NCBI GenBank assembly: GCA_902825985.1 | Contig: CADEDC010000048.1 | Span: 9,136-45,752, forward strand | Direction of reading: 5' to 3' | Length of the DNA: 36,617 bases | Source: an uncultured Acidobacteriota bacterium | GTDB lineage: Bacteria > Acidobacteriota > Vicinamibacteria > Vicinamibacterales > CAVVIG01 | Shown here: in pieces, positions 2,115 through 23,653 of the stretch | Numbering within the stretch: position 1 is the first letter of the stretch | Layout: the number at the start of each line of letters is the position of its first letter | Notes under the pieces: generated by a model | Database searches by the model: none | What the model was told of the DNA's origin: nothing | What the model saw: the letters and a program-made list of their open reading frames with translations, nothing else | Made by a program: the position numbers and the translations under genes

Positions 2115-4175
2115 TCAGCGGCCGACGAACGGACGGCGCTGGCGGTAGAGTTCGAGGCGGACGCGAATGGCGTCGCCGGCCGGGCCGCCGCCGGCGAGCT
2201 GCAGGGCCGTTTCGGCGGTCGCCGCCGCCCGCGCGAAGTCGCCTGCCGACGCGTAGGCGGCCGCGAGCACGTCCATGACGCCCGGATCGCGCCCACCGGT
2301 CAACTGGTGCGAGCGTTCGGCCAGCCGGATCGCCTCGCCGGCGTCGCGCAGCGCCGGGTTGCCGCTCGTGGCGAGCACCCAGGCCAGATCCGTCATCGCC
2401 GGCGCCCATTCGGGTCGCGCCGCGAGCGCCGCCCGGTAGTGCGCCAGCGCGGCCGGCAGGTCGCCGCCGTCGCGGCTGAGGAGCGCGAGATTCCGGTGCG
2501 CTTCGGCGTTCGCCGGATCGACGCGCACTGCCTCACCGAAGTGATGGCGCGCCGCCGGCAGGTCGCCGCGCTGCCGGTAGAGGCTGCCGAGATTGTTGTG
2601 CGCCTGCCCGTAGTCGGGGCGCAGCGCCAGCGCCCGCCGCAACTCGGCGATCGCCTCGTCGAAGCGACCGTTCAACGACAGCGCCGTCCCGAGGTTGAAG
2701 TGCGCCGCGGCACTCTCCGGCTGCAGCGTCGCCGACGCGGCGAAGTGCTCGAGCGCCTTGGCCACGTTGCCCAGTTCCAGATACAGCATCGCGGCACTGT
2801 CGCGCAGCGACGCGGTCCGCGGCTCGCGTCCGATCTCGCGTTCGTAGCCGAACGTGTCCTCGGTCAGGATCTTCGGCCGGAAGCCGGCGAGCAACACGTC
2901 ACGATCGCGATCGTCGTGGGTCAGGACCTGGAACCAGACGTCGCCCATCTCGTCGGCCGACCGCTGTCCCCAGAATACGCGCCGCGGCGGGTTCCAGGGA
3001 TTGCGCGGGTTGGCCGCCGAGTTGTCGTAGGTGATCGCCATGTCCAGCCTGGTCCCCTTCGGCAGCGCCAGCGGTGTCGCGTAGCGGTAGACGTCCTGCC
3101 AGCGGAAATCCCAGTCGGCGATTTCGATCACCGGAATCACCTGGCCGCCCGGCAGCGTCGCCGTGGCGCGCACCCGCCGGGCCCGCTGGTGCGCGTGCGG
3201 CTGCACGGCGTGGAGCGTGGCGTCCACCGGCAGCACGAAGGCGTCGCGGATCGTGTGCGCCGCCGCGCCGGCCGGGATGTCGATGTCCTGCTTGCCGAGC
3301 CGCAGCATCGTCGGCGTGCGCTCGGGTGGATCGGCTCCGAAGTACAGGCCGATCTCGGGCTTCACGGGTTCCGGCTTGCCGCTCGGCTGCAAGTGGAGCT
3401 CGATCACCAGGTCGGTGTCGGGCTCGAGCCGCCAGGCCAGCCCCTTCGGCAGCAGCGGCGGCACCTGCCCTGGCGTCCAGCCGAGGAAGTGGCCGTCGGG
3501 ATAGACGGCCGTGTGGGCGATGAGGCCGTCGTAGCCGGGCGCCGGATCGGCGTCATCGAACTGCCGCGACGTCCGCGTCGCGTCGATGCGGATATTCGCG
3601 TGATGGACGACGCGCAGGTTGCCCGGGTGGAACTCGAGCCCTTTCACATAGCGCAACGCCGACGTCGGCAAGGGGATGACGAAGATGCGGAAGACGTCGG
3701 TGCCGTCGGGGCCGAGCGTGAAGCCCTCGGCCGGCGTGACAATCAGGTCGGGCTTGCCCAGCTGCCAGCCGGCAGCGATTGGGGGCGGCGGCAGCGCCGC
3801 GCCGTCCCCTTCCGGCGCGCCGGCCGTCACCCACCGCTGAATCGTCGACAGCTCGGCCTCGGAAAGCCGGTTCGAGCCGACAAAGGTGCCGCTGCCGGCC
3901 GGTTCCGGCTTCCACGGCGGCATGTAGCGCCGCTGCGTGACGTCGACGATCTGCTCGGCATGCTGCCTGACCTGCGCGTAGGTGATGAGCGGAAAGGGCG
4001 CCGAGCCGCCGTCGTGGTGGCAGGCCGCACACCGCGCGTGCAGAATCGGGGCGATGTCACGCGTGAAGGTGACGGACTGGGCGGCGACGGAGCGGGCCCG
4101 GGCGAGGCTGGCCAGCGTCACGACGACGGCCAGCGCCACCCGGGCGCTTCCGCTACCGCGCGAAGTCGGCCACAT
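2115..4175 (-). CDS. Secreted c-type cytochrome / PHM-like copper monooxygenase / TPR protein (paralogue A)
   Basis: A 686-residue exported protein. A signal peptide (ALAVVVTLASL...SVAAQS) leads to a cytochrome-like domain with the haem motif C49-A-A-C52-H53; M85 in YMPPWKPEP may be the axial ligand. Residues about 140-420 resemble the copper type II ascorbate-dependent monooxygenases (peptidylglycine alpha-hydroxylating and dopamine beta-monooxygenase). All six copper ligands can be placed in the family order and similar spacing: H191-H192, H261, H327-x-H329 and M410 in ADEMGDVWF. GWTPGQ and LPKGLAWRL also match that fold. About five TPR units fill residues 455-665. Its start overlaps the redoxin stop by 23 bp, so the two are probably co-transcribed. 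The substrate is unknown. Oxidation with electrons from the fused haem instead of ascorbate is my inference. Confidence 0.88.
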   Translation of the reverse strand: MWPTSRGSGSARVALAVVVTLASLARARSVAAQSVTFTRDIAPILHARCAACHHDGGSAPFPLITYAQVRQHAEQIVDVTQRRYMPPWKPEPAGSGTFVGSNRLSEAELSTIQRWVTAGAPEGDGAALPPPPIAAGWQLGKPDLIVTPAEGFTLGPDGTDVFRIFVIPLPTSALRYVKGLEFHPGNLRVVHHANIRIDATRTSRQFDDADPAPGYDGLIAHTAVYPDGHFLGWTPGQVPPLLPKGLAWRLEPDTDLVIELHLQPSGKPEPVKPEIGLYFGADPPERTPTMLRLGKQDIDIPAGAAAHTIRDAFVLPVDATLHAVQPHAHQRARRVRATATLPGGQVIPVIEIADWDFRWQDVYRYATPLALPKGTRLDMAITYDNSAANPRNPWNPPRRVFWGQRSADEMGDVWFQVLTHDDRDRDVLLAGFRPKILTEDTFGYEREIGREPRTASLRDSAAMLYLELGNVAKALEHFAASATLQPESAAAHFNLGTALSLNGRFDEAIAELRRALALRPDYGQAHNNLGSLYRQRGDLPAARHHFGEAVRVDPANAEAHRNLALLSRDGGDLPAALAHYRAALAARPEWAPAMTDLAWVLATSGNPALRDAGEAIRLAERSHQLTGGRDPGVMDVLAAAYASAGDFARAAATAETALQLAGGGPAGDAIRVRLELYRQRRPFVGR

Positions 4176-4746
4176 AGCATCCCACCGCCTGCGTCCGCGG
4201 CTGACGGACCGGCGTGCCCGCCAGCACCTGCGTCAGCGCATCGGCGAGATCGTGCGTCGTCGCCGCCGGGCGCTCGAGGCCGAGGTTGACGTAGCGATCG
4301 TCGATGCGCCCGCGATACGCGAGCTGGCCGGCGTGTGTGAACACGGCAACTTCCGGCGTGATGCTGATGTCGGCGTGCTTCACGAGGGCGTGCGTCAGAT
4401 CGCGGACCGCATCCACCGGATAGGCGTACGCCTTCAGGTGCTCGCGAATCGCGGCCGGCGTCTCCGCCGGGTTGGGATAGACGAGCGTGAAGCGGACGCC
4501 CTGGGCGGCGAAGCGTTCGTGCAGCCGCCGCACCTCCGGGGCGTAGCGGTTCGACACCGGGCACTCGACGCTCACGAACACGTAGACCGCCGCCTTCACG
4601 CCGGCCGGCAGTTGCAGTGGATCGACCGGAGCGCCGTCCAGCGACTGGACGCGGACCGCTTCGGCGGCGCGCCCGGCGGCCGGCGCGAGGCAGGTCAGAC
4701 CGATGAACAGGATGCAGCGACCGACGACGCGGGTATGGGCGGTCAT
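4153..4746 (-). CDS. Exported redoxin/thioredoxin-fold protein without a CXXC motif
   Basis: A 197-residue protein with an N-terminal hydrophobic export signal (CILFIGLTCLAPAAGRA) and a thioredoxin-like fold: strand AAVYVFVSV, active-site loop ECPVSNRYAPE, and a cis-proline region ITPEVAVF near residue 131. The loop keeps a single cysteine (C62); the second cysteine of CXXC or of the SCO CxxxC motif is absent, with N66 at the SCO position. A C-terminal cysteine, C190 in QAVGCYV, could pair with it. A Shine-Dalgarno GGGAGG lies 9 bases before the ATG. It sits between the two haem/copper paralogues, 26 bp after one and overlapping the other, so a role in their maturation, copper supply or redox cycling is plausible but not shown. 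Confidence 0.85.
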   Translation of the reverse strand: MTAHTRVVGRCILFIGLTCLAPAAGRAAEAVRVQSLDGAPVDPLQLPAGVKAAVYVFVSVECPVSNRYAPEVRRLHERFAAQGVRFTLVYPNPAETPAAIREHLKAYAYPVDAVRDLTHALVKHADISITPEVAVFTHAGQLAYRGRIDDRYVNLGLERPAATTHDLADALTQVLAGTPVRQPRTQAVGCYVADFAR

Positions 4747-4772
4747 GGATTGGTGCCTCCCTCAGCGTACAC

Positions 4773-6836
4773 CTAGCCGATACGGAACCGGCGGCGGCCC
4801 TCGTACAGCGACAGCCGCTCGCGAATCTCGGCGGCAAACCCGGGCAGCCGTGCGCTGGTCGCGACCTGCAGCGCCGCCTTCGCCGTCGCCACCGCTTGGT
4901 CGAACTGCCCGGCCGCGGCGTAGGCGGCGGCAAGCGCATCCAGCACCGCCGGATCCGCCCGGGCCGTGAGCCGCGCCGCCCGTTCGCCGAGCGCCACCGC
5001 CTCGGCAATCTCTTCCGGCGTCGCCGCGACCGCCGTAGCGTAGAGCCACGCCAGGCCGCTCATCGGCGACGCCCAATCGGGCCGCAAGCCGAGTGCGGCT
5101 CGGAAGTGCCGCGCGGCATCACGGTGCTCGCCGCGCGTCGACAGGATGCGACCGAGGTTGTCGTGCGCCTCGGCATTCTCCGGTTTGAGGGCAAGCGCGC
5201 GGCGATAGTGCGGCAGCGCCTCGTCGAGCCGGCCGTTGATGTGGAGCAGTGCGCCGAGGTTGTTCTCGGCATCGGCATGCCGGGCATCGAGCGACACGGC
5301 GCGACGGAACGCCGCGATGGCGTCGTCGAACCGGCGCTGGGCCGACAGCGCAAGACCGAGGTTGTAATGCGTGGCCGCCACCTCCGGCGCGAGCGCAAGC
5401 GACTCGCGGAAGTGCGTCGCGGCGCGGTCGGCCTGGCCTCCCTGCAGGTAGAGCAGCGCGACCGCGTCGTGGCGGCTCGCGTTCGCCGGCTCCTGGGTGA
5501 GCAGCCGCGTGTAGGCCTCCAGGTCCTCGGCCCGCATCTTCGCCGCCACGTCGGTGGCCAGCGCGACGAAGTCGGCCTGCGCGCTCGGCACCAGCTGCAG
5601 CCACAGGTCGCCCATCTCGTCGTTTGTGTTCTGGCCCCATACGACCCGCCGCGGCGGCGTGAACGGATTGCGGACGTTCTCCGCCGAGTTGTCGTAGACG
5701 TAACGCATCGAGATGACCGCGCCGCGCGGCAGCCGCACCGGAGCGGAGTAGCGGTACACGTCCTGCCAGCGGAAGTCCCAGTCGGCGATTTCGATGAGCG
5801 GCATCGTGACGCCGGTCGGCAGGGTGGCCCGCGCCGTCATCTGCCGGCCGAGATTGTGCGCATGCGGCTGGATGGCGATGACGTCGGCGTCCACCGGCAA
5901 CGTATAGCTGTCGGTGATGGCATACGCCGGCTCGCCGGCCGGGATGTCGATCGTCTGGCTGCCGAGCCGCAGGCCGACGGGGGCGCGCACCGGCGCGGCG
6001 TCGGTGAAGTAGAAGCCGACGCTGATCTGCACCGGCTCGGACTTGCCGGTCGTCTGCATGTGCAGTCCGGCAACGAGGTCGCTGTCGCGCTCCAGCCGCC
6101 ACGCCATGCCGTCGGGCGATGGCCGCGGACGCTGTCCCGGCGTCCAGCCGAGCATGTGGCCGGGCGGGTAGCTGGCCGCCTGGGCCATCGAACCTTCGTG
6201 ACCGGGCGTCGAATCGAGCTCGTCCAGACGTCGCGAGGCACGGGTGCGGTCGATCCCGATGTTGGCGTGATGGACGGCGCGGGCATTGCCGGGGCGGAAC
6301 TCGATCGCCTCCACGAAGCGTGCGGCGGGCAGCGGAATCGGCAACACGAACGTGCGGAACACGTCGGGGCCGTCGGCCCGGAGGAGGTACGGTTCCGGCA
6401 TCGTCACGACGAGATCCGGCACGCCGTACTGCCAGCCGCTGGCGAACTGCGGCACCGGCGGGAGGTCGCCGCTGTCGCCTTCGGGGGCGCCGGCCGCCAC
6501 CCATCGCTGAATGACGTCGATCTCGGCGGTGGTCAGGGCGCGCGAGTCGAGGAACTCGCCCTTCCCGGGCTCCGGCTTCCACGGCGGCATCAGCCGGGCC
6601 CGCGTCACGTCGGCAATCTGACGGGCGTGCTGGCGCGCGTCCGCATAGGTCAGCAGACTGAACGGCCCGACCTCGCCCGGGCGATGGCAACTGGCGCACC
6701 GGCTGTGAATGATGGGAGCGACGTCGCGGGAGAACGTCGCCGTCGGTGCTTGTGCGGAAACCGGCGCGACCAGACTTCGTCCGACCATCAGCGCCAGCAG
6801 TGAGGCGCCGCTCGCGCGCAGCGGCGAAATCCGCAT
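4773..6836 (-). CDS. Secreted c-type cytochrome / PHM-like copper monooxygenase / TPR protein (paralogue B)
   Basis: A 687-residue paralogue of the protein two genes downstream with the same layout. A signal peptide ends near PVSAQA. The cytochrome motif is C47-A-S-C50-H51, with M83 in LMPPWKPEP as possible axial ligand. Copper ligands of the PHM/DBM type are H189-H190, H259, H324-x-H326 and M408 (NDEMGDLW). TPR units run from about residue 455 to 655. In the segment around the Met ligand I count 34 identities in 58 aligned residues with paralogue A, so this is an old tandem duplication. The chosen ATG gives a clean signal peptide and has AAGG 9 bases upstream; longer readings of this frame add only low-complexity sequence. 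As the first gene of the set it is probably transcribed from the divergent promoter region at its 5' end. Confidence 0.88.
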   Translation of the reverse strand: MRISPLRASGASLLALMVGRSLVAPVSAQAPTATFSRDVAPIIHSRCASCHRPGEVGPFSLLTYADARQHARQIADVTRARLMPPWKPEPGKGEFLDSRALTTAEIDVIQRWVAAGAPEGDSGDLPPVPQFASGWQYGVPDLVVTMPEPYLLRADGPDVFRTFVLPIPLPAARFVEAIEFRPGNARAVHHANIGIDRTRASRRLDELDSTPGHEGSMAQAASYPPGHMLGWTPGQRPRPSPDGMAWRLERDSDLVAGLHMQTTGKSEPVQISVGFYFTDAAPVRAPVGLRLGSQTIDIPAGEPAYAITDSYTLPVDADVIAIQPHAHNLGRQMTARATLPTGVTMPLIEIADWDFRWQDVYRYSAPVRLPRGAVISMRYVYDNSAENVRNPFTPPRRVVWGQNTNDEMGDLWLQLVPSAQADFVALATDVAAKMRAEDLEAYTRLLTQEPANASRHDAVALLYLQGGQADRAATHFRESLALAPEVAATHYNLGLALSAQRRFDDAIAAFRRAVSLDARHADAENNLGALLHINGRLDEALPHYRRALALKPENAEAHDNLGRILSTRGEHRDAARHFRAALGLRPDWASPMSGLAWLYATAVAATPEEIAEAVALGERAARLTARADPAVLDALAAAYAAAGQFDQAVATAKAALQVATSARLPGFAAEIRERLSLYEGRRRFRIG

Positions 6837-6887: not shown

Positions 6888-9086
6888 ATGACACGACCGC
6901 CGCGGCCGAAGCGCGCCGCCCCGCCACACAGCCTGTCGCCCGACCCTCTGCCGGCTGGCGGTTCGTCGGACGGGTTGCCGCTGTGGCTGTTCGCCGGGAT
7001 CATCGCCGTGCCGGCCCTCGCCCTTCGGCTGCTCCACCTCTGGGACATCAAGCAGGCCACGTTCTTCAGCGTCCTGATGGGCGACGCCAGGGCCTACGAC
7101 GCCTGGGCTCAGCGGCTGGCTGGCGGAGACTGGGTCGGCACCGAGGTCTTCTACCAGGCGCCGCTGTATCCGTACTTCCTCGGGGTCATCTACGCGGTCG
7201 CCGGTCACGACCTCCTGCTCGTCCGCGTCGTCCAGGCGCTGCTCGGCTCGGCGTCCTGCGTGCTGCTCGGACTGACGGCCCGGCGGCTGTTCTCGCAGAG
7301 GGCCGGACTCATCGCCGGTGTCGCGCTCGCCGTCTACGCGCCGGCGATCTTCTTCGACGGCCTGATGCAGAAATCGGTGCTCGACGTCTTCTTCATCTGT
7401 CTGTCGCTGTGGCTCATCAGCGGGCTGTCGATCGACCCAGGGCGCACGGCGTCGTGGGTCGCGCTCGGTCTGACGATGGGCGGCCTGAGCTTGACGCGCG
7501 AGAACGCGCTGGCGCTCGTCGCGGTTGTCGGCGTGTGGGCGGCGTTCGGCGTCCGCGCCGCGCTGCCGGTGCGCGGCCGCGCCGCGGCGGTCTTCGCGGC
7601 CGCGGTGGCGATCGTGCTGGTGCCGGTGGCGATCCGCAACTACGCGGTCGGCGGCGGCTTCTACCTGACGACGGCGCAATTCGGTCCGAACTTCTACATC
7701 GGCAACAACCCGGGTGCCGACGGCACCTACGCGTCGCTCCGCTTCGGCCGGGGGGCGCCCGAGTACGAGCGGCAGGACGCCACCGACCTCGCCCAGCGCG
7801 CCGCCGGACGGACACTGACGCCATCCGAGGTCTCGGCCTACTGGACCGACAGGGCGCTCGATTTCATCACCACCCAGCCCGGCCGCTGGTCGAGGTTGAT
7901 GGGCCGCAAGCTGCTGCTGCTGTCGAACGCATCCGAGATGCTCGACACCGAGAGCCAGGAAACCTACGCCGACGAGTCATGGCCGCTGCGCGCCACCGGC
8001 TGGCTCACCCACTTCGGCGTCCTCGTGCCGCTGGCGTTGTTCGGCGCCGTGACCGTCTGGCCGGCCCGCCGCTCGCTGGGGGTCTTCTACGCACTGACCG
8101 GCACCTACGCCGCCAGCGTGCTGGTCTTCTATGTGTTCGCCCGCTACCGCTTTCCGCTCGTGCCCATGCTCGTACTGTTCGCCGCCGCCGGGCTTGCGGC
8201 GCTCCCCGGGTGGTTGCGGGTGACGGCGCGGTCGCGCCTCGTCGCGGTCGCCGGCGCCGTGGTCGCGGCGCTCGTCGTCACCAACTGGCCGGTGCTGTCA
8301 CCGACGCTCATGCGGGCGATCACCGAGACCAACCTGGCGACCGCGCTACAGTCGGAGAATCGCATCGACGAGGCGGTGCGACACTACCAGCGTGCGATTG
8401 CCTGGCAGCCGGACTACGCACCGGCACACAACAATCTCGGGACGGCGCTGCGCGCCCAGGGCAGGCTCGACGATGCGATCGCCACCTACGAGCGGGCGCT
8501 CGCCGTCGCCGCCGACTACCCGGATGCGCACTACAACCTCGCCAACGCGCTGCTCGAGAGGAACCGGCCGGAGCTGGCGGCGCGGCACTTCCAGGTGGCG
8601 CTGCAGTCGATGCCGGATTCCGCCGAAACCCACAACAACCTCGGAATCGCGCTGATGAACCAGCAGCGGTACGACGAGGCAATCGCGGCCTTTCGGGATG
8701 CCCTGACGATTGCGCCGGCATCGACGCAGACGCTGCGCAACCTCGCGTCGGCCCTCGACGCGCGGGGCCATGTCGACGAGGCGGTCGAAACCCTGCAGCA
8801 GGCGATCGCGCTCGACCCGCAGGATGCGGCGGCGCTCTACGACCTCGGCAGCACGATGCTGGAGGCGGGTCAGATGGAAGCGGCGATCGACGCGTTCCGC
8901 AAGGCGCTCGCCATCACCCCACAGTCGGTCGAAGCCCACAACAATCTCGGGATCGCGCTCGGTTCGCTCGGACGGATGGCCGAGGCGGCGGCCGAGTTCG
9001 AGCGCGCCCTCGCGATTCGACCGGACTTCGCCGACGCCAGGCGCAATCTGGAACTGGCCCGCGCCGCCGGCGCCGGCCAGCGGTGA
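6888..9086 (+). CDS. GT-C-type glycosyltransferase with C-terminal TPR domain
   Basis: A 732-residue integral membrane protein. Residues about 30-470 form the many-helix core of the dolichyl-phosphate-mannose/ArnT-like GT-C superfamily, which uses polyprenyl-phosphate sugars. An acidic motif GDARAYDAW (around residues 65-73) lies in the first large external loop, where these enzymes have their catalytic Asp, and FYQAPLYPYFLG and ARYRFPLVPML match the family. After the last membrane helix there are about seven TPR units (residues 485-725, for example YAPAHNNLGTALRAQGRLDDAI). It is transcribed away from the haem/copper-TPR genes across a 51-bp gap. The acceptor is unknown: glycosylation of cell-surface proteins or lipids is possible. 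No strong Shine-Dalgarno is visible. A hairpin follows the stop. Confidence 0.86.
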   Translation: MTRPPRPKRAAPPHSLSPDPLPAGGSSDGLPLWLFAGIIAVPALALRLLHLWDIKQATFFSVLMGDARAYDAWAQRLAGGDWVGTEVFYQAPLYPYFLGVIYAVAGHDLLLVRVVQALLGSASCVLLGLTARRLFSQRAGLIAGVALAVYAPAIFFDGLMQKSVLDVFFICLSLWLISGLSIDPGRTASWVALGLTMGGLSLTRENALALVAVVGVWAAFGVRAALPVRGRAAAVFAAAVAIVLVPVAIRNYAVGGGFYLTTAQFGPNFYIGNNPGADGTYASLRFGRGAPEYERQDATDLAQRAAGRTLTPSEVSAYWTDRALDFITTQPGRWSRLMGRKLLLLSNASEMLDTESQETYADESWPLRATGWLTHFGVLVPLALFGAVTVWPARRSLGVFYALTGTYAASVLVFYVFARYRFPLVPMLVLFAAAGLAALPGWLRVTARSRLVAVAGAVVAALVVTNWPVLSPTLMRAITETNLATALQSENRIDEAVRHYQRAIAWQPDYAPAHNNLGTALRAQGRLDDAIATYERALAVAADYPDAHYNLANALLERNRPELAARHFQVALQSMPDSAETHNNLGIALMNQQRYDEAIAAFRDALTIAPASTQTLRNLASALDARGHVDEAVETLQQAIALDPQDAAALYDLGSTMLEAGQMEAAIDAFRKALAITPQSVEAHNNLGIALGSLGRMAEAAAEFERALAIRPDFADARRNLELARAAGAGQR

Positions 9087-20379: not shown

Positions 20380-20431
20380 CCGCGCCGGCGGGCATCGTGA
20401 TGCGGCCGGCCGCGGCATTCGGAGGGTGAAG

Positions 20432-23400
20432 ATGCGAGGATGGGTACGAGCCGCGGCCGCAGTGCTGCTCGCCGCCTGGTGCGGGGTGCCGCCCGTGTGG
20501 GCGCAGGCCACCGGCACGATCACGGGCGTCGTCACCGACTCGTCGGGCGGCGTCCTGCCCGGTGCGACGGTCGACCTGACCAACCTCAACACGAATGCCA
20601 CCCGAACCGTCGTCACCGATGGCGAGGGGCGCTACACGCTGTTGCTCGTCCAGCCGGGCGCCTACCGCGTCAGGGGATCGCTGGCCGGATTCACGGCGAT
20701 CGAGCGCGGCGACATCGCGGTCACGGTCGAGAGCACGTCGCGCGTCGACCTGGCGCTCAGCGTCGGCAGTCTGGTGGAGGTCGTGGCGGTCACCGCGGCG
20801 GTGCCGCTGGTCGAGACGCGCAGCGGGACGCTCGGCCTGGTGGTCAATCGCGAGCAGATCGTCGAATTGCCGCTGAACGGCCGCAACTTCACACAGCTCG
20901 GCACGCTGCTGCCGGGCGTGCTCGCCCCGCCGGCCGGCCTCGGTGGCGGGGCGGGGGACGCGACGCCCGGCGGCTTCGGCGCTGCGACCTCGGGATTCAG
21001 CGTCAACGGCCAGCGCAATCAGTCGAACAACTTCCTGCTCGATGGTGCCAGCAACAACGATTCGTTCAACACCGGGTTCGTCATGCGCCCGCCGCCGGAC
21101 GCGATACAGGAGTTCAAGATCCTGACCCACTCGTACGGCGCCGAGTACGGCCGCAACGCCGGCTCGGTGGTCAACGTCGTCACCCGCAGCGGCAGCAACG
21201 ATCTGAGCGGCGCCGCCTGGGAGTTCAATCGCGACGACCGGCTGCAGGCCCGCAACTACTTCGCGTCACCGACGCAGCCCAAGCCCAAGCTGAAGCAGCA
21301 TCAGTTCGGCGGTGCCCTCGGCGGCCCGGTGGCGAAGAACACGCTGTTCGGCTTCGGGTTTTACGAGGGCTTCCGCAACACCAGCGGCGTCGTGCAGAAC
21401 TTCGTCGTGTTGAGCGAAGCCCAGCGCCTCGGCGACTTCGGGACGACGACCGTCCGGGATCCGCTGACCGGTGCGGCCTTTCCGAACAACGCCATTCCCG
21501 CCACGCGCATGAGCGCCGCGGCCCGCCGGCTGCTCGACGAGTTCGTGCCGGATGCGAATACCGGTGCCGACCGCTACGTGGTCTCGCCCGATTCCACGGA
21601 CCATCGCGATCAGTTCGGCCTGCGCGTCGACTATCAGCGTTCGGCGAAGCACTCGGTGCTCGGCCGCTACCTGCACAGCCGGACGCACCGCAACGACCCG
21701 CCGACGACGCGGCCGGTCGGCACGGTGGCGAAGGCGGTTCTGCAGGACGCGATGGTCGCCGACACCTACATCGTCGGCTCGACGCTGTTCAACGTCGCGC
21801 GCGTCTCCTACAACCGCATCGGCGCCAGGCCGCAGGCGACCAGCGCGCTCGCCAACGCCGCCTACGGCCTGGACGTCCCGCAGAACCGTCCGGACGCCCT
21901 CGGGCTGGCGAACATCACGGTCAACGGCTTCTTCAGCCTCGGCGACGCGGCGCAGCCGTTCGTCCGCCGCATCAACGAGGTGATCAACATCGCCGACGAT
22001 GTGACCTGGGTCCGCGGCAGACACGCGATGAAGTTCGGCATCGACATCCGGCGCGAGCACATGCTGCTGGCATTCGTGAACCGCCCGAACGGCGACTTCA
22101 CGTTCAATGGCTATGCGACGGGCAACGCGGCGGCCGACTTCCTGCTCGGGCTGCCGTCGCAGTTCCGTCGCGCGACGCGGAACAGCGACCAGGACGGCAC
22201 CGGCTGGCTCTACGCCGGCTTCGCCCAGGACGAGCTCCGCTTGGCCAACCTGACGCTGAACCTCGGCGTCCGCTACGAGGTGGCGATGCCGTTCGTCGAT
22301 GCCGGCGACGCGCTGAACTCGTTCCGGCCGGGCCAGCAGTCGACGCGGTTCCCCGGCGCACCGCTCGGCCTGGTGTACCCCGGGGATGCCGGGGTCGAGC
22401 GCGGCACCTATCCGACCGACCGGAACAACGTGGCGCCGCGCGTCAGCGCGGCGTGGGATCCGACCGCCACCGGCCGCTCGAGCCTGCGCGGCGCCTGGGG
22501 CATCTTCTACGACGCCCTCGCCGGTCAGGGCGACTTCTTCCAGAATGGCGTCCTCGCGCCGCCGTTCACCCCGATTCTGGAAGTGAATGCGCCGCCCGCA
22601 GCGCTGACGTTCCAGGATCCGCTGGCGGCCGTATCGGGCGGCGCCAGCGACTTCCCCGCCGGCCTGATCTTCATTGGCATGGACCGCCACTTCACGTCGC
22701 CGTACGCGCAGCATTACAACCTCACCTGGCAGCAGCAGGTGTGGGACCGCTTCTCGGCGGAAGTCGGCTACGTTGGTGCGCGCGGCTACAATCTGCCAAT
22801 CTTCATGGAAGCGAACCCGGGCCTCCACGTGGCCGGTCAGACGGCGCCCGGGGCGCGCGTCTACCCGGCCTTCAGCCTGGTCCGGCCGACCGTGTCGGCG
22901 GCACGGTCCTGGTATGACTCGCTGCAGGCGAGCGTCCGCATGCGGCCGAGCCGCGGCGTCAACTTCCTGGCCTCGTACACGTTGGGCCATGCGGTGGACC
23001 ACGTGTCGGGCCTGAACATCGGCGGCGAGCAGCGGCCGGTAGACGCCATCGCGATCGGCGACCGGGCGTCCATCGAGCGGGCGCTGGCATTCGAAAAGGG
23101 TGACGCGCTCTTCGACGCACGCCACCGCTTCGTCTTCAGCTTCGGGGCCGCCCTGCCGGCGCCGGCCGCAATGGGCCGGGCCATGACCCAGATGCTCGGC
23201 GGATGGCAGGTGAACGGCATCGTCCAGGCGCAGACCGGCTTCCCGTTCACCGTCTACGATCCGGTCACCAGCATCCGCTACCTGACGAACCGGCCGGACC
23301 AGATCTGCGATCCGAACGCCGACGCGCCGGGCACCGTGGCCCGCTGGTTCGACACGTCCTGTTTCGTCCGCCGGCCGTTGGCGGCGACGGCCGACCCGGG

Positions 23401-23653
23401 GAGCACGCCGCGCAACAGCGTCCGCGGGCCGGGCTTCGCGCGCACCGACCTGTCGGTGTTCAAGACGATCGCGCTGCCGGCACGCCAGACGATTCAGCTG
23501 CGGGTCGAGACGTTCAACATCTGGAACCAGACGCAGTTCCGCAATCCTGGCACCGGCAACACGGGCAACCAGATCGGCACGCCGCAGTTCGGCCAGATCA
23601 CGGCCGCCGAAGACGGGCGCGTCGTCCAGCTCGCTATCAAGTACAGTTTCTGA
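20432..23653 (+). CDS. Oar-like TonB-dependent outer-membrane receptor with carboxypeptidase-regulatory N-terminus
   Basis: A 1073-residue outer-membrane protein. The signal peptide ends near VWAQA. A carboxypeptidase-regulatory-like beta domain follows (TGTITGVVTDSSGGVLPGATVDL, residues about 29-110). Then comes a plug domain (VELPLNGRNFTQLGTLLPG; SGFSVNGQRNQSNNFLLDG; NAGSVVNVVTRSGSNDLSG) and a large beta-barrel. The chain ends RVVQLAIKYSF with the terminal aromatic needed for barrel insertion. GGAGG lies 6 bases before the ATG. Such receptors are very numerous in acidobacteria and import or display unidentified large substrates. Seven bases separate it from the secreted P1 peptidase, suggesting a shared message. 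Substrate is unknown. Confidence 0.95.
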   Translation: MRGWVRAAAAVLLAAWCGVPPVWAQATGTITGVVTDSSGGVLPGATVDLTNLNTNATRTVVTDGEGRYTLLLVQPGAYRVRGSLAGFTAIERGDIAVTVESTSRVDLALSVGSLVEVVAVTAAVPLVETRSGTLGLVVNREQIVELPLNGRNFTQLGTLLPGVLAPPAGLGGGAGDATPGGFGAATSGFSVNGQRNQSNNFLLDGASNNDSFNTGFVMRPPPDAIQEFKILTHSYGAEYGRNAGSVVNVVTRSGSNDLSGAAWEFNRDDRLQARNYFASPTQPKPKLKQHQFGGALGGPVAKNTLFGFGFYEGFRNTSGVVQNFVVLSEAQRLGDFGTTTVRDPLTGAAFPNNAIPATRMSAAARRLLDEFVPDANTGADRYVVSPDSTDHRDQFGLRVDYQRSAKHSVLGRYLHSRTHRNDPPTTRPVGTVAKAVLQDAMVADTYIVGSTLFNVARVSYNRIGARPQATSALANAAYGLDVPQNRPDALGLANITVNGFFSLGDAAQPFVRRINEVINIADDVTWVRGRHAMKFGIDIRREHMLLAFVNRPNGDFTFNGYATGNAAADFLLGLPSQFRRATRNSDQDGTGWLYAGFAQDELRLANLTLNLGVRYEVAMPFVDAGDALNSFRPGQQSTRFPGAPLGLVYPGDAGVERGTYPTDRNNVAPRVSAAWDPTATGRSSLRGAWGIFYDALAGQGDFFQNGVLAPPFTPILEVNAPPAALTFQDPLAAVSGGASDFPAGLIFIGMDRHFTSPYAQHYNLTWQQQVWDRFSAEVGYVGARGYNLPIFMEANPGLHVAGQTAPGARVYPAFSLVRPTVSAARSWYDSLQASVRMRPSRGVNFLASYTLGHAVDHVSGLNIGGEQRPVDAIAIGDRASIERALAFEKGDALFDARHRFVFSFGAALPAPAAMGRAMTQMLGGWQVNGIVQAQTGFPFTVYDPVTSIRYLTNRPDQICDPNADAPGTVARWFDTSCFVRRPLAATADPGSTPRNSVRGPGFARTDLSVFKTIALPARQTIQLRVETFNIWNQTQFRNPGTGNTGNQIGTPQFGQITAAEDGRVVQLAIKYSF

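Follow-up and report, generated by a model that had tools for sequence, protein, structure and literature searches.

Paired PHM/DBM-like copper proteins with a fused c-type cytochrome domain and a partner redoxin, encoded in one operon of an uncultured Acidobacteriota bacterium

Two paralogous genes of an uncultured Acidobacteriota soil bacterium, here called gene A and gene B, are packed together with a redoxin gene into a tight operon and encode predicted exported proteins in which a c-type cytochrome domain precedes a copper domain of the peptidylglycine/dopamine monooxygenase (PHM/DBM) type and a series of TPRs follows it. The explanation that best accounts for the unit as a whole, and that we consider fairly probable, is that these proteins are periplasmic dicopper monooxygenases with a built-in haem electron relay and a partner redoxin. 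To our knowledge, the textbook uncoupled dicopper enzymes PHM and DBM are known almost entirely from animals, where they serve in the production of peptide hormones and noradrenaline. Their two coppers lie about 11 A apart, and both the exchange of electrons between them and the identity of the reductant have long been debated. Bacterial matches to the Pfam models of Cu2_monooxygenase are already present in public annotation, so the occurrence of the copper domain in bacteria is not new in itself. The open-licence literature, the only literature covered, yielded no description of a cytochrome c-PHM protein from bacteria, and this absence is therefore weak evidence of novelty. With a bacterial, haem-fused version, electron entry could be followed spectroscopically and the mechanism studied in a soluble system, and C-H hydroxylases could be drawn from a new source.

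Operon organization and protein architecture

The operon lies on the reverse strand of the window, i.e. the whole stretch of 36,617 nucleotides that was analysed, and consists of gene B (positions 4773-6836, 687 aa, with its ATG at 6836), the redoxin gene (4153-4746, 197 aa) and gene A (2115-4175, 686 aa). The extent of this unit (2115-6836) had been given correctly in a preliminary description of this DNA. A gap of 26 bp lies between B and the redoxin gene, and the last 23 bp of the latter are shared with the start of A. All three proteins begin with signal-peptide-like N-termini by direct reading of the sequence, from which their export and a periplasmic location are predicted; an exported redox operon, as had been proposed earlier, is supported. 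Within the operon, no substrate-specific gene and no obvious electron donor besides the redoxin was found.

Over their whole length, A and B share 52% identity, and their architecture is the same. In B, a signal peptide (about residues 1-30, as read from the sequence) is followed by the c-type cytochrome domain (about residues 34-125), which carries the haem motif C47-x-x-C50-H51 and a probable distal ligand, M83, in MPPW. The PHM-like double jelly-roll (residues 139-438) contributes two sets of copper ligands, H189, H190 and H259 on the one hand and H325, H327 and M408 on the other, and leads into a TPR superhelix (residues 434-682). The equivalent residues of A are C49, C52 and H53 of the CXXCH motif, M85, and the copper ligands H191, H192 and H261 together with H327, H329 and M410, again with TPRs behind. 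The placement of TPRs behind the copper domain, also part of the preliminary description, is well founded, as the TPRs of both A and B score far over the Pfam cut-offs; apart from them, only the redoxin exceeds its Pfam cut-off in this operon.

The divergent neighbour of B (6888-9086, forward strand) encodes a PMT_2 mannosyltransferase-like membrane protein with C-terminal TPRs, and in several relatives B is likewise preceded by a divergent gene of comparable size (726-787 aa, matched by position and length). Directly behind A, the reverse strand encodes a BlaI-type repressor (1652-2296) and a BlaR1-like peptidase of family M56 (3-1655) to which CarboxypepD_reg and TonB_C domains are fused; this pair might regulate the operon. 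Beyond it, just outside the window, lies a third, short cytochrome c-PHM copy with a partner protein (C48:7508-8890, L128).

The copper domain

Homologues were sampled from 79 loci of public genomes and about 30 places in the bacterium's own genome, and the main alignment comprises 105 proteins with 25-63% identity. The model of B built from this alignment reaches a pLDDT of 93.9 and a pTM of 0.88, residues 1-17 being the sole segment with a pLDDT below 50. Residues 139-438 of the model superpose on PHM with a Z score of 22.1 (266 residues, rmsd 3.2 A; E value of 2.5e-11 in Foldseek) and the model superposes on DBM (4ZEL) with a Z score of 21.3; TPR proteins make up the rest of its strong structural matches, in keeping with residues 434-682. 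TPR proteins also dominated the sequence-based searches of the PDB: A alone retrieved TPR proteins only among the matches listed, and a profile including the TPRs behaved likewise, so the copper part was searched alone. Against the whole PDB, the family profile of this part matched PHM/PAM chains only, with a best E value of 7.1e-9. In the resulting alignment, the HH motif falls on H107/H108 of PHM, the single H on H172 and HxH on H242/H244; DEM is aligned on the DEM of PHM M314 in a separate short piece that is weak alone. Among the Pfam models, PF03712 (Cu2_monoox_C) reaches 20.0-21.8 bits in B against a cut-off of 23, and in the relatives it is matched in 36/71 and PF01082 in 10/71 cases, with a best E value of 1.1e-8.

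Conservation points in the same direction. H259, H325, H327 and M408 are invariant in 105/105 proteins, H189 and H190 are each retained in 104, and N383 and N387 (B numbering) never change either; the alternative of chance motif matches was rejected on account of this retention of the copper ligands. The position equivalent to Q170 of PHM is less uniform, with Q in 61 of the 105 relatives, G in B and E in A. As modelled, B has the PHM/DBM fold and all of the copper ligands, and the clustering of the six ligands in space follows from its superposition on PHM; copper is presumed to be loaded at both sites. The preliminary description had proposed a PHM/DBM-type copper domain with two jelly-rolls and six ligands in PHM order. 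Both jelly-rolls are present in the model of B, the ligand order is borne out by the ligand-on-ligand alignment to PHM, and the domain assignment is upheld by the family profile, the model and the conservation of the ligands.

The cytochrome domain and its link to copper

C47, C50, H51, M83, P84, P85 and W112 never change among the 105 proteins, and residues 34-125 of the B model are helical, with helices at 35-46, 64-69, 71-80 and 103-114. M83 lies 32 residues past the haem histidine, within an MPP motif. Small c-type cytochromes often carry their distal methionine at such a position, and M83 is accordingly the probable distal haem ligand. Pfam's Cytochrome_CBB3 model scores 17.4 bits in the window proteins, with a cut-off of 27. 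The N-terminal domain combines the CXXCH motif and the conserved methionine with a small helical fold and a predicted export, and thus has the attributes of a class I-like c-type cytochrome. The c-type haem domain that had been postulated in front of the copper domain is in this way supported by motif, model and conservation; covalent attachment of haem is what the motif indicates, and its loading is presumed.

Upstream of 114 of the 116 full copper domains a CXXCH motif is present, and the other two belong to reading frames that are cut at the start; this sampling was seeded from the haem-copper family itself, and haem-free bacterial PHM relatives could exist elsewhere. Within the family as sampled, haem and copper have therefore not come apart. 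Since the haem is never lost in the family, its function as a built-in donor of electrons to the copper sites is plausible.

The partner redoxin

The third protein of the operon matches the Pfam Redoxin/AhpC-TSA model with 33.0 bits (cut-off of 26.6) and has a thioredoxin fold of the 2CVB/2YWI type, with 3U5R as a further relative in both sequence and fold. Its invariant C62 is located in a CP[IVL]xN motif and its C-terminal C190 in a GC motif, and 34 redoxins keep C62, P63, Y68, D116, P131, Y144, G146, D149, G189 and C190. The closest solved relatives are 2CVB from Thermus and 2YWI from Geobacillus, the latter of which shares the C-terminal GC motif. Unlike these two, the redoxin of the window is predicted to be exported and is linked with a cytochrome-copper enzyme, either in an operon or by fusion. 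In 14 relatives, mostly from Planctomycetota, Armatimonadota and Poribacteria, a redoxin is fused ahead of the cytochrome-copper core in one chain, and in 16 cases counting A, from Acidobacteriota and one Latescibacterota record, a redoxin gene lies directly upstream of the core; the A orthologues of other Acidobacteriota are also located directly behind such a gene. Fusion and gene order thus mark the redoxin as part of the cytochrome-copper unit, and it provides the strongest functional lead. Its role may be that of a thiol reductant, a caretaker of copper or disulfides, or a peroxide scavenger.

Comparison with known copper monooxygenases

By fold and ligands, A and B fall into the PHM/DBM superfamily, and within it they stand outside both PHM proper and DBM. 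The double jelly-roll and the six copper ligands in the same order are common to them and PHM, which is part of PAM. The differences are the c-type cytochrome fused in front and the TPRs behind, and, in comparison to PAM, chains that have no lyase (PAL) domain. R240, N316 and Y318, which we take from the established PHM structures to be the residues that bind the peptide carboxylate, correspond in the profile alignment to Q323, D410 and W412 in B and are variable among the relatives. As these peptide binders are not conserved, the substrate is probably something other than a glycine-extended peptide, and it probably differs between paralogues; peptide amidation was rejected as a function because the PHM substrate residues are absent. 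Moreover, A and B contain no cysteines besides the CXXCH pair, which excludes the disulfides of PHM. DBM and MOXD have the same copper core, and DBM likewise possesses an extra N-terminal domain. In DBM, however, this is a DOMON beta-sandwich, whereas A and B carry a helical c-type cytochrome: no Pfam match to DOMON was found in either protein, and residues 34-125 of B are helical with a CXXCH motif. Haem or PQQ enzymes also feed an exported copper monooxygenase in LPMO systems, where the donors are cellobiose dehydrogenase or quinoproteins. Here, the likeness is one of analogy only, as copper fold and site differ and the haem of A and B is fused to the dicopper enzyme itself.

Proposed mechanism and alternative explanations

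In the favoured explanation, A and B would act as exported dicopper monooxygenases with the PHM/DBM fold and a covalently fused c-type cytochrome. The haem would most likely pass single electrons from a periplasmic pool to the His3 copper (H189/H190/H259 in B). In this role it would stand in for ascorbate or for DBM's DOMON module, and candidates for the electron pool are other cytochromes, quinoprotein dehydrogenases and the partner redoxin. The His3 copper would then feed the His2Met copper (H325/H327/M408), which would activate O2 and hydroxylate a C-H bond; the substrate would be something other than a glycine-extended peptide. Electron entry at the first site and O2 activation at the second are assigned by homology with PHM, and we infer the direction of electron flow, the monooxygenase activity and the nature of the substrate. 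The redoxin would act on the same cytochrome-copper unit, while the TPR tail, in line with the general use of such repeats as docking sites, could dock partners. Weighing against this explanation are the sub-threshold Pfam scores of the cytochrome and copper domains in the window proteins, the replacement of the PHM Q170 equivalent by G in B and by E in A, and the lack within the operon of a substrate-specific gene or of an evident electron donor apart from the redoxin.

Electrons might also flow in reverse. The coppers would then oxidise a substrate, or act as reductants of O2, nitrite or peroxide, while electrons would leave through the haem to the respiratory chain, making the proteins an oxidase, reductase or peroxygenase instead of an ascorbate-type monooxygenase. 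Sequence cannot tell the direction of electrons, c-type haem is commonly an acceptor, and the nearby quinoprotein dehydrogenases and the redoxin also suit an oxidising chain or the handling of peroxide. Even so, we regard this as unlikely, given that the full His3 and His2Met set is that of PHM/DBM monooxygenases, the methionine is kept without exception and the copper-domain profile matched no solved non-PHM enzyme. A loss of catalysis, with A and B serving as copper-binding, sensing or scaffold proteins organized as a TPR hub, appears highly improbable. In its favour, the TPR tail suggests binding, and the genes behind A encode a BlaI-type repressor and an M56 protein of BlaR1 type that carries a TonB_C domain. 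Nearly all of the 105 relatives, however, retain all ten metal-site residues despite identities of 25-63%, while the PHM substrate residues vary, as is typical of an active enzyme family whose substrates change.

The remaining alternative concerns the redoxin and is compatible, as a sub-case, with the dicopper monooxygenase explanation. The redoxin could be a working reductase whose C62/C190 thiols reduce the haem or the copper, or maintain copper in its reduced form for loading, in a chain that runs from thiol to haem to copper with A as the immediate partner. The invariance of both cysteines in the 34 redoxins is in keeping with this idea, as are the direct fusion of the redoxin to the front of the cytochrome in three further phyla and, in Acidobacteriota, its location immediately ahead of the A-type copy. 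Set against this, neither the B-type nor the short paralogues possess their own redoxin, and the nearest solved relatives (2CVB, 2YWI, 3U5R) were deposited as uncharacterised or thioredoxin-like, which leaves a reductase function possible and somewhat doubtful.

Family history and genomic context

The haem-copper family spans several phyla and is widespread in bacteria. About 30 cytochrome c-PHM copies are present in the bacterium's own genome, and the distribution within the same order is patchy: at an E value of 1e-15, no copy is found in 15 of 25 genomes, whereas several carry 12 to 28. A-type and B-type proteins form separate clades that are common to several species (99 and 97% SH-aLRT). 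The pair is therefore old, and a recent tandem duplication of A and B was rejected on these supported clades; the earlier view of two diverged copies around a redoxin is correct and describes an arrangement that is conserved in other Acidobacteriota. In these relatives, the recurring order is B, often a gene of TonB-receptor size (1026-1089 aa), redoxin and A, and a 1053 aa example of the intervening gene was confirmed as an Oar-type receptor. The short copies without TPRs split from the long TPR/redoxin clade in the tree (99%; midpoint root only).

Many of the short copies are accompanied by an exported, uncharacterised protein with a length of about 270-360 aa. Of its 20 genomic copies, 17 are located no more than 1 kb from a core (p about 3e-24), and examples from the bacterium's own genome (L110:6609-7409, forward strand; L128:6402-7496, reverse strand) show at most a weak PKD match. 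We regard this protein as a dedicated partner of the short copies. Oar-type TonB receptors are found within 3 kb of 9 of the 30 cores (at most 2.9 expected, p 0.0014) and PQQ dehydrogenases near 7 of the 30 own cores (up to 1.8 expected, p 0.0015), and all of these neighbour statistics are somewhat generous, as paralogues are treated as independent and two copies may share one neighbour. The PQQ-dependent dehydrogenases, located at L110, L113, L114, L115 and L127 and in some cases fused to a cytochrome c domain, are a possible electron source or next step of a pathway.

It is quite conceivable, as a tentative generalization, that the family constitutes an ascorbate-independent general platform for extracellular or periplasmic oxidation, built on dicopper monooxygenases with their own haem donor. 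This reading would take in the fused redoxin of three phyla, the expansion to about 30 copies per genome, the paired exported partner proteins, the TonB receptors and the quinoprotein dehydrogenases. The expansion of paralogues suggests that Acidobacteriota of soil and groundwater possess a capacity for oxidation that has gone unstudied.

Elsewhere in the window, an Oar-type TonB-dependent receptor (PF25183) is encoded at 20426-23653 on the forward strand, followed by genes for an S58 peptidase and a PhoD-like phosphatase. Members of the family also occur in records titled Bordetella parapertussis, Kuenenia and Nevskia (L087, L102 and L088, respectively), of which L087 clusters closely with a sequence from Bryobacterales and probably represents a bin with a wrong name.
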